A stretch of 64,000 nucleotides of DNA from a virus. Position numbers and translations under genes: made by a program. This document shows positions 6,552 to 8,950 of the stretch, in pieces (position 1 is the stretch's first letter; each line of letters begins with the position of its first letter). The DNA lies in IMG/VR virus record IMGVR_UViG_3300005915_001138, positions 62,001 through 126,000 of that record; one strand, 5' to 3'. The notes under the pieces are model-generated. The model saw only the letters and a program-made list of their open reading frames with translations, was not told the DNA's origin and searched no databases.

Positions 6552-6685
6552 TGGAGGAGACCAGACTCGAACTGGCGACCTCTTGCTTTTTGCGAAGTAA
6601 CCCTGTTCCTCATAACCCTTGAAGGGGAAAATATCGAATAGGGCATTTTTACGGGCATGCGCTCTACCAACTGAGCTACTCCTCC
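6552..6685 (-). tRNA. tRNA-like gene interrupted in the anticodon arm
   Basis: Acceptor arms GGAGGAG/CTCCTCC, D-arm GCTC-AGTTGGTA-GAGC and T-arm GCCAG TTCGAGT CTGGT are intact. The stretch between the D- and T-arms is about 61 nt longer than normal. It can form nested hairpins (CCCT...AGGG and CCCTTCAAGGG). The anticodon stem halves CATGC and GCAAG pair imperfectly. CCA is not encoded. The insert is too short for a standard group I intron and the anticodon cannot be read safely. It is either a tRNA with a tiny intron-like insert or a decayed gene. Confidence 0.6.
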
Positions 6686-6707: not shown

Positions 6708-7091
6708 CTAGATGGGAACCTCTTCGTCTATTGAGTCTTTATCTTCCGCCATGATTTCACTAAGGATCTCAGTATCGCTAGGAGGATTAGTACTCGTTAC
6801 TAGGACTTCATTGGCATCATCTGCCATCAACTCTGCTAGTAATTCACTATCTTCAGGTTCAATGTATAAAGTATGTGCAACCGATCCATCAACTTTTCTC
6901 AACTCTATTGAAATTTTTCCAGAATCTCTTTGGTCTACTTGATGTAGAAATCTACCAGCCATCGCTAATTCGATAAGTGATTCGTTATCACTATCATCTG
7001 ATTCTAATTTTCTAACCAAAGTAGCCTGTAATTTTTTGTTAAATTTTTCTAAATCTGCGGTCATTAATTTTGCCGGTCTACCTCTAGGCAT
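6708..7091 (-). CDS. hypothetical acidic protein, 127 aa
   Basis: It starts MPRGRPAKL, an AT-hook-like RGRP turn, followed by a helical region and a strongly acidic C-terminal half (EPEDSELLAELMADDANE, EDKDSIDEEV). The basic N-terminus suggests nucleic-acid contact, which is inference. Its start region overlaps the end of a small Zn-finger frame upstream. No family is recognised. Confidence 0.6.
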   Translation of the reverse strand: MPRGRPAKLMTADLEKFNKKLQATLVRKLESDDSDNESLIELAMAGRFLHQVDQRDSGKISIELRKVDGSVAHTLYIEPEDSELLAELMADDANEVLVTSTNPPSDTEILSEIMAEDKDSIDEEVPI

Positions 7092-7195: not shown

Positions 7196-7330
7196 TTATG
7201 AAAGAATGAACATAAACAATATAACACCAGCGACAATTGCCCCGAGTGCTAATATTCCAAGGATGGCAACAACAATTATCAATTCTATTAATGTAAATCC
7301 TTTTTTCTTCTGGACAGGATGTATATCCAT
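7196..7330 (-). CDS. prepilin-like peptide (44 aa) with class III signal
   Basis: ATG 7330 has GGAGGAAAG directly upstream. The product carries a textbook type IV prepilin leader and N-terminal helix: a basic run KKK, then GFTLIELIIVVAILGILA with the conserved Glu at position 5 after the Gly-Phe cleavage site. A host prepilin peptidase would cut before F and N-methylate it. After this helix the protein ends within about 16 hydrophobic residues, so the globular pilin head is missing. It is a pilin-mimicking membrane peptide rather than a normal pilin. Confidence 0.75.
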   Translation of the reverse strand: MDIHPVQKKKGFTLIELIIVVAILGILALGAIVAGVILFMFILS

Positions 7331-7338
7331 CTTTCCTC

Positions 7339-7710
7339 CTAAATTATAAGCCCTGCGTTTTCAGAGATCAGTCGGTGTAACTGATCCCTTAGAAAATCCA
7401 TTCGAACTTTTTTATCCCTCTTGGGATGCATTTCAGAAGGAAGAAATATTCTTAAATCGTCATCAGTCTTATTATCAATATATCCTAACTCAATAGCATT
7501 CCATATTCTGTCGTGCCATGTCTTTAATAAAATTAATTGTTGTCGTTTATAACTCCGGTCATATGTTCTAACGAACGTCAATGTATTAATTAATGTCTCA
7601 AGGAGCCTATAGGCTTTGCCAGTGGAACAAGTACCAGAGATATAGTAATCCACTACGAATTTTTCCCCCAATGGATAAACATGATCACTTCCCATGGTAA
7701 AGTATTCCAT
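7339..7710 (-). CDS. hypothetical protein, 123 aa
   Basis: A basic, aromatic-rich helical protein (for example RTYDRSYKRQQLILLKTWHD) starting at ATG 7710, four bases after the GH10 gene's boundary and just upstream of the prepilin-like peptide. It has no transmembrane segment and no recognised motif. Confidence 0.55.
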   Translation of the reverse strand: MEYFTMGSDHVYPLGEKFVVDYYISGTCSTGKAYRLLETLINTLTFVRTYDRSYKRQQLILLKTWHDRIWNAIELGYIDNKTDDDLRIFLPSEMHPKRDKKVRMDFLRDQLHRLISENAGLII

Positions 7711-7714
7711 CTAT

Positions 7715-8950
7715 CTATCTACCCCATCTCCAGAATTTCCACCATCTTTTCCTTGGTTTTGGTTCTGGAACTGGTTCCGGATCCGGTTCAGGATCGGGTT
7801 CTGGTTCAACTACTTCAACAGCAACCGCGACTGTAACAGTAGGATTACTCTTATCTAAAGTAAGCGGAACCTCTACGTCTTCTACCAATATTTTATAATT
7901 GCCACGGAACCCATTAAATATTACTTTACCTTCACTATTAGATTCAACTGTTAATTTAGTATACCATTCATTTGTAATAAGATTTTTCAATCTATCGAAT
8001 GCTGGCTTCGATGTACCATTCGTTCTGAATAATCCAATCGTAGGTTTCCAAGGATCTCCATCTGGAATGCTCCACCAGGTAATAACTTCTACTGAGGGTA
8101 TTGAGAAATACAATCTATATAATTTCTCTGCATAGTCTGCTTGATTGGTTTCATTCCAAATTCCACCAGCGGACTGAACAGATACTTCACTAATGTGAAT
8201 AGGTTTTCCAAGATCATTAAATTCTTCTATCTTTGATTTTATATAATTAATATCATATTCTTTATCGTCTGGAATATGAGACTGAATTCCTACATAGTCA
8301 TAGTCAAATTGGCTTCCAACACCTTTCAGTATAGTAGCAAGATTCAACCAACCACCAAGGATTCCATATTCATTAATTCCTATCTTCAAGTCATTGTATG
8401 GTAATGTTCTTATATAAGAATGAACAGATCCTATATCTATTCCAGGATTATTAATAGGTTCGTTCACCGTATCCCAGAACATAAAGTCATCTGCATATTC
8501 ATTTAATAGTTTATTAATATGTTCTATTTGTGCTTCTGGCGTAGCGCCCCATGTTGGTTGTGCTATAGTATAAAGAATTGGATGTCCTTTCATAGGCCAC
8601 CCTCTTGTCTTGCACCAATCTACCTGGATCTGAAGTGTTGGAAACTTATAGGTACCTTGTGGGCTTTCTAAGCTAGACCAATACAACCCGAGTGTAGCAT
8701 TGTTGAAGACATCATCAACTTTATCCAGGAGTTCTGGTTTATAGAATACTCCTGGACCCATACCAAATAGGAACTCGTGACCGGTCTGTGTGACTTCTAC
8801 ACTCACGCCGGGCGCAGCATTACCACTCAAATCTGTTACCTCGATGGTAGCAGATGATTTTCTATGTGAGTAATCATATGATTGTGCTGCAGCAGTTAAA
8901 CTGATTACCATGAACGAAACTAATACCAACGACATAATCTTCTTAAACAT
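7715..8950 (-). CDS. secreted GH10 endo-beta-1,4-xylanase-like protein
   Basis: A Sec signal peptide (basic start, hydrophobic core to about residue 22, AAAQS cleavage region) precedes a GH10 catalytic barrel. The acid/base glutamate is in WDTVNEP (E164) and the nucleophile in HISEVSV (E255). GHPILYT and the ITWWSIPDG loop also match GH10. The tail has Pro-Glu-Asp repeats followed by a Trp/Arg-rich end (KRWWKFWRW), which may stick to membrane or polysaccharide. Hydrolysis of xylan-like or capsular glycans by infected cells is the likely role. SD and ATG are clear at 8950. Confidence 0.85.
   Translation of the reverse strand: MFKKIMSLVLVSFMVISLTAAAQSYDYSHRKSSATIEVTDLSGNAAPGVSVEVTQTGHEFLFGMGPGVFYKPELLDKVDDVFNNATLGLYWSSLESPQGTYKFPTLQIQVDWCKTRGWPMKGHPILYTIAQPTWGATPEAQIEHINKLLNEYADDFMFWDTVNEPINNPGIDIGSVHSYIRTLPYNDLKIGINEYGILGGWLNLATILKGVGSQFDYDYVGIQSHIPDDKEYDINYIKSKIEEFNDLGKPIHISEVSVQSAGGIWNETNQADYAEKLYRLYFSIPSVEVITWWSIPDGDPWKPTIGLFRTNGTSKPAFDRLKNLITNEWYTKLTVESNSEGKVIFNGFRGNYKILVEDVEVPLTLDKSNPTVTVAVAVEVVEPEPDPEPDPEPVPEPKPRKRWWKFWRWGR

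Follow-up and report, generated by a model that had tools for sequence, protein, structure and literature searches.

A headless prepilin-like peptide with a class III signal encoded in a packed gene run of a large uncultivated phage

The window analysed here, a stretch of 64,000 nucleotides, is part of a 152,423-base IMG/VR record, which is identified as phage by its T4-like terminase and baseplate genes. On the minus strand the window harbors a packed run of genes in the order GH10 xylanase-like enzyme, ORF123, 44-aa ORF, zinc ribbon and ORF127, with the following elements:

7715..8950 (-), GH10 xylanase-like enzyme, 411 aa, opening the packed run; Pfam Glyco_hydro_10 82 bits, PDB beta-xylanases matched
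7339..7710 (-), ORF123, directly upstream of the 44-aa ORF with 8 nt between
7335..7339 (-), GGAGG as ribosome binding site, seen in the sequence itself 4 nt ahead of the ATG
7196..7330 (-), headless prepilin-like ORF of 44 aa that starts with ATG and ends with TAA
7064..7186 (-), 40-aa ORF with two CxxC pairs, zinc-ribbon-like, starting 9 nt after the stop of the 44-aa ORF, own AGGAG site
6708..7091 (-), ORF127, overlapping the end of the zinc-ribbon ORF and closing the packed run

The position, strand and length given for the 44-aa ORF in the first-pass annotation (7330..7196, minus strand, 44 aa) are exact, and the strong ribosome site described there is found as tataatttaGGAGGaaagATG ahead of the ATG. 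Its translation reads MDIHPVQKKKGFTLIELIIVVAILGILALGAIVAGVILFMFILS. Codon usage tends to that of coding sequence (92nd percentile of shadow-frame ORFs, 23rd of real gene fragments), a weak measure at 44 codons, and the synonymous-only codon score is neutral. The 44-aa ORF is a real gene in a large uncultivated phage, and its product is, from the sequence, probably made.

The GH10 xylanase-like enzyme displays by eye a Sec-type signal peptide, a Pro/Glu repeat linker, a basic/aromatic tail (RKRWWKFWRWGR) and both catalytic glutamate motifs (NEP, HISE); named phages hold only one distant relative of it. Profile searches returned no family match for ORF123, and among the neighbours tested they revealed neither a lysis gene nor, beside the 44-aa ORF, an exported partner with a head-like domain. 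A tRNA at 6552-6685 (-) was detected with Rfam (48.2 bits, E=2.5e-9) and was not listed by ARAGORN. Its anticodon loop is interrupted by about 60 extra bases, which may represent a short intron or insertion, unusual for a phage tRNA, or mark a dead gene. The top matches of the DNA of this region to named phages are short stretches at the tRNA gene.

Residues 8-32 of the 44-aa peptide constitute a class III (type IV prepilin) signal, which is recognised by Pfam N_methyl with 38.7 bits (E=6e-10, cutoff 21.2 bits) and by TIGR02532 with 34.3 bits (curated cutoff 16.3 bits). The short basic leader MDIHPVQKKKG, comprising the first 11 residues, ends in G-1 and is followed by F1 and E5 (FTLIE), so that cleavage is predicted between G and F and would release a mature helix of 33 residues containing both F1 and E5. 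Counted as [KR]GF[TSN]..E., the prepilin-type motif has a single occurrence in the 152 kb record, as compared with 0.017 expected from Markov-model copies. Since both profile scores exceed their cutoffs and the motif is rare in the Markov-model copies, the class III signal is beyond chance. In pilins the leader and helix set the N-in position in the inner membrane and present the G/F bond to prepilin peptidase, while E5 serves filament docking; F1 and E5 are the residues by which pilins enter the filament. From signal and helix, N-in insertion of the 44-aa peptide and its presentation to the host prepilin peptidase would thus be expected, in agreement with the entry into the host pilus pathway proposed earlier.

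The leader and helix had been described as near-perfect, which applies to residues 8-27. Beyond these, from about mature residue 17 onwards, the peptide leaves the pilin pattern: the usual Pro22 and polar residues are missing, and E5 is followed by 28 uncharged residues, hydrophobic to the last one before the stop. The claim that no globular part is added stands, as the product consists of a prepilin-type signal and a membrane helix, with a mature part of 33 residues, and then stops. It has neither the globular head nor the polar second helix half of a type IV pilin or pseudopilin, and no pilin equivalog profile reached its cutoff against it. Judged by sequence, the 44-aa peptide is therefore no pilin but bears a bona fide class III signal. 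For such genes we define here the headless prepilin-like phage micro-ORF, which combines a class III signal, a mature part not exceeding about 40 residues and its own ribosome site in a phage genome; the 44-aa ORF possesses all of these features.

The phage itself has few relatives. Its terminase is T4-like and less than 30% identical to those of named phages, with Flavobacterium phages immuto and Microcystis phage Mel-JY01 ranked first. The sole other copy of the 44-aa ORF was found on a 275,542-base contig with a 100% identical peptide, and as the compared stretches contain 0 mismatches, this contig stems from the same virus population. Searches of viral contigs with the neighbouring proteins, the baseplate protein and the terminase yielded nothing but this identical contig. 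A tblastn search with the 44-aa peptide against named phages gave no match, for which low-complexity masking is a likely reason. Besides the 44-aa peptide, N_methyl matched nothing in the 152 kb record, and the phage was found to contain no second prepilin-like gene, no anti-phage defence families and, with the 275 kb contig included, no prepilin peptidase. For the C-terminal half of the peptide, which is unusual, a bacterial origin was considered and dismissed, its coding pattern being without a match in genome contigs. An SPFH partner was likewise rejected: the single match is borderline and lies far off in the 275 kb contig, hence a link to the 44-aa peptide is not indicated.

Short prepilin-like ORFs recur in other phages. 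Viral contigs were scanned with the pattern KGFTLIEL and the ORF length was then read, which gave many short ORFs among the viral-contig matches listed. Headless ORFs of 27-41 aa are present in Aeromonas T4-like phages, Aeromonas T5-like phages and uncultivated large phages, with these representatives:

L031/L143/L123, membrane-only or nearly so, 27-28 aa
L036, membrane-only or nearly so, 28 aa, large uncultivated contig
L068, membrane-only or nearly so, 29 aa, beside a T4-like terminase gene, weak ribosome site
L201, membrane-only prepilin-like peptide, 40 aa with 34 mature residues, 353 kb uncultivated contig, AGGAG ribosome site
Aeh1 ORF040c, AAQ17699.1, depositors' note 'similar to N-terminal sequence of bacterial secretion protein pilin'
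PX29p038, ADQ52757.1, depositors' note 'similar to N-terminal part of fimbrial protein (pilin)'
Shenzhenvirus (T5-like) AhSzw-1 AVR76054.1 and AhP_Mru1 XSC61948.1, annotated hypothetical
Shenzhenvirus (T5-like) AhSzq-1, headless ORF absent from annotation
L183:894-977, L184:873-956, L185:642-728, intact headless micro-ORFs missing from Aeromonas phage annotation
L187:642-728, L188:642-728, L190:800-925, likewise intact and missing from Aeromonas phage annotation

In the Aeromonas Straboviridae (T4-like) the headless peptide sits between nrdB and nrdD, and intact, unannotated copies were found in phiAS5, phiWae14, avDM12-TAAL, AsFcp_2 and Ah1. The peptides of the Aeh1/PX29 type (27-29 aa) share with the 44-aa peptide the class III signal and a single membrane helix without a head, but have a minimal leader, MKG, and a helix ending at 24-26 mature residues; homology to the 44-aa peptide is supported for the prepilin signal only. 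Those of Shenzhenvirus (37-41 aa) are also headless class III peptides, yet carry a short polar tail, GG.VLT..P, after the helix. The L201 peptide is membrane-only and prepilin-like as is the 44-aa peptide, whereas its helix sequence and neighbours differ. A class III N-terminus is furthermore common to the 44-aa peptide and the PHROG families 13280, 10597, 11263, 27437, 11596 (unknown function) and 3433 (pilin); these families span 59-187 positions, of which the peptide matches only about the first 20-30 at the N-terminus.

Several arrangements around such leaders were observed in passing. A 36-aa form in L063, which shares its metagenome id with the 275 kb contig, lies directly behind an SPFH/Band_7 gene, and such a gene directly precedes a prepilin-like ORF in two unrelated phages (L063:8005-9123, an uncultivated contig, and L217:7170-8365, Aeromonas phage 44RR2.8t). 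At L007:9960-10319 the domain fused to the prepilin leader is phrog_301 (99.7 bits), a 'secreted protein' domain of phages; this fusion points to leader swapping. The viral ORF L073:1573-1761 contains the pilin-like helix segment IELLITLVIAA in tandem repeat.

The frequency of short forms was compared by running one pattern on viral contigs and, as a cellular control, on prokaryote genome contigs, with distinct ORFs counted. Among the matches listed, a mature part no longer than 70 aa was found at 24 of 103 viral versus 2 of 117 cellular loci (Fisher p about 3e-7, and about 1e-6 once obvious relatives were merged) and one of at most 40 aa at 9 of 103 versus 1 of 117 (p about 0.007-0.013), these p-values being indicative only because they cover the matches listed, the motif was fixed by the pattern, a handful of loci from the narrower scan was taken into the viral set and the viral contigs include related sequences. 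Whatever the mechanism, the prepilin signal on very short proteins is thus far commoner in phages than in cellular genomes among the listed matches of these matched scans. The 44-aa peptide represents a kind of phage micro-protein that recurs and has been little studied. Most of the headless micro-ORFs in the examined Aeromonas records lack annotation, and phage-encoded pilin-like peptides as a kind are not described in the open-licence literature searched; the depositors of Aeh1 and PX29 had earlier remarked on the pilin likeness in passing.

The Aeromonas copies allow selection to be assessed. The headless frame is intact in 7 of 7 T4-like copies (Aeh1, PX29, phiAS5, phiWae14, avDM12-TAAL, AsFcp_2, Ah1). 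With 24-37 codons per sequence the pN/pS values are rough; they amount to 0.26-0.36 for the most diverged T4-like pairs (Aeh1 group versus phiAS5 group, pS ~0.7, pN ~0.2), to 0.06-0.36 for the T5-like pairs and to a less clear 0.61-0.79 for PX29 versus the Aeh1 group. In codons 3-9 (GFTLIEL) of ten Aeromonas sequences the amino acids are invariant while every codon varies synonymously; Gly, for instance, is encoded by each of its four codons. As these changes are purely synonymous, it is the protein sequence including E5 that is held, not the DNA. Frame and signal, E5 included, are under purifying selection in the Aeromonas phages with headless ORFs.

The reading that we prefer, tentatively and as a real possibility short of an even chance, is that the 44-aa peptide is a phage-encoded headless prepilin acting as a decoy which interferes with a type IV filament machine of the host. 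Translation would start from the ribosome site of the ORF, the class III leader (KKKG/F) would direct insertion of the peptide N-in/C-out, and the host prepilin peptidase would cleave it to a 33-residue helix with F1 and E5, lacking both alpha1-C and a head. Retained in the inner membrane as a decoy subunit, this helix would tie up the platform protein (PilC/GspF class), the prepilin peptidase or the contact through which subunits dock by E5, and would in this way slow or stall a type IV pilus or type II secretion filament of the infected cell. Blocking further phage entry might plausibly be what the phage gains. Translation, cleavage, target and benefit are inferred; pilus interference and superinfection exclusion are suggested by analogy with PfsE of a filamentous phage. 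With equal right the target could be the pseudopilus of type II secretion; the presence of an exported GH10 enzyme in this gene run makes type II secretion worth considering, albeit speculatively.

The decoy reading draws on the N_methyl and TIGR02532 scores, the ribosome site, the packed operon, the recurrence in phages, the selection in Aeromonas, the naturally short Geobacter pilin as closest solved structure and the PfsE precedent. A helix with F1 and E5 and nothing past the membrane is what a decoy subunit would be expected to look like. In pilins E5 matters for assembly and not for cleavage; its retention in the Aeromonas phages was therefore counted in favor of a decoy, while the fact that the 44-aa peptide retains only the first half of the pilin helix counts against it.

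Among the alternatives, a plain membrane anchor deserves most attention, although we consider it somewhat unlikely. Here the class III leader would be reused as a cheap, interchangeable N-terminal signal on a small single-pass protein with a role unrelated to pili, e.g. as partner of another phage protein. This agrees with the distribution of the leader, which is joined in L007 to the 'secreted protein' domain phrog_301 and in L131, L174 and L090 to small tails containing Cys, as well as with the C-terminal half of the 44-aa helix not being pilin-like. However, the headless forms considered carry no attached domain, and an anchor has no need of E5, a charged residue inside the membrane that is present in every copy, with GFTLIEL invariant in the Aeromonas phages. 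As the scans demanded E5, its presence in the wider set is given by construction and only the Aeromonas comparison bears on this question. That a host filament takes up the peptide as a pilin of very small size, alone or together with a separate head protein, in the manner of Geobacter PilA-N, is improbable: F1 and E5 are present and the best PDB match is geopilin domain 1, but the latter has about 61 mature residues whereas the 44-aa peptide ends inside the membrane, and beside its ORF no exported head-like partner was recognised. The alpha1-C half of geopilin domain 1 is polar.

The remaining explanations are weaker still. That the peptide accumulates, disturbs SecY/YidC and thereby aids host shut-off by jamming membrane protein insertion is quite improbable; prepilin build-up in Synechocystis without PilD does harm the Sec translocon, but this effect needs a missing peptidase, and the paper itself doubts direct jamming (PMC8546353). 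A holin- or antiholin-like function in the lysis pathway would suit a short, very hydrophobic single helix with a weak PHROG holin match (E=0.25), yet every holin match falls far below the class III signal, and the neighbours tested included no recognisable lysis gene, making this very unlikely. The same low probability is assigned to the ORF having arisen by chance or being what is left of a captured pilin gene after decay. The leader is clearly pilin-like, and the single copy without diverged relatives found would fit such an origin; against it stand the GGAGG site and packed spacing of the 44-aa ORF and the selection on the same short form in Aeromonas phages. Moreover, the zinc-ribbon ORF begins 9 nt past the stop with its own ribosome site and leaves neither a pilin head remnant nor room for a head. 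With nothing of a head downstream, the decayed-pilin reading was rejected.

Returning to the decoy reading, a broader version of it would hold that membrane-only prepilins evolved repeatedly, in T4-like and T5-like phages as well as in large uncultivated ones, and form a host-takeover class of their own, which uses E5 docking to poison pilus or type II secretion assembly; this is conceivable, but doubtful. If the decoy reading were true, type IV filament machines would have a minimal inhibitor in this peptide, and F1/E5 docking alone could be turned on the host.

Among solved structures, the best match of the 44-aa peptide is Geobacter geopilin domain 1 (PilA-N), over residues 5-32. Like the peptide, PilA-N is naturally short, but it retains the polar second helix half and is a bacterial filament subunit. 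The phage type IV pilus inhibitors PfsE, Tip and Aqs1 bind PilB or PilC and would be analogous to the 44-aa peptide in function only. PfsE of the Pseudomonas filamentous phage Pf4 is a 30-residue N-in inner membrane protein which blocks type IV pili through PilC (PMC8764522). In contrast to the 44-aa peptide, it stems from a filamentous phage and contains a conserved YXWGW motif with no class III motif reported, and the two are not related by the tests employed here. The precedent is consequently a functional one; as a very short N-in phage membrane protein, PfsE provides the working analogy for the 44-aa peptide.
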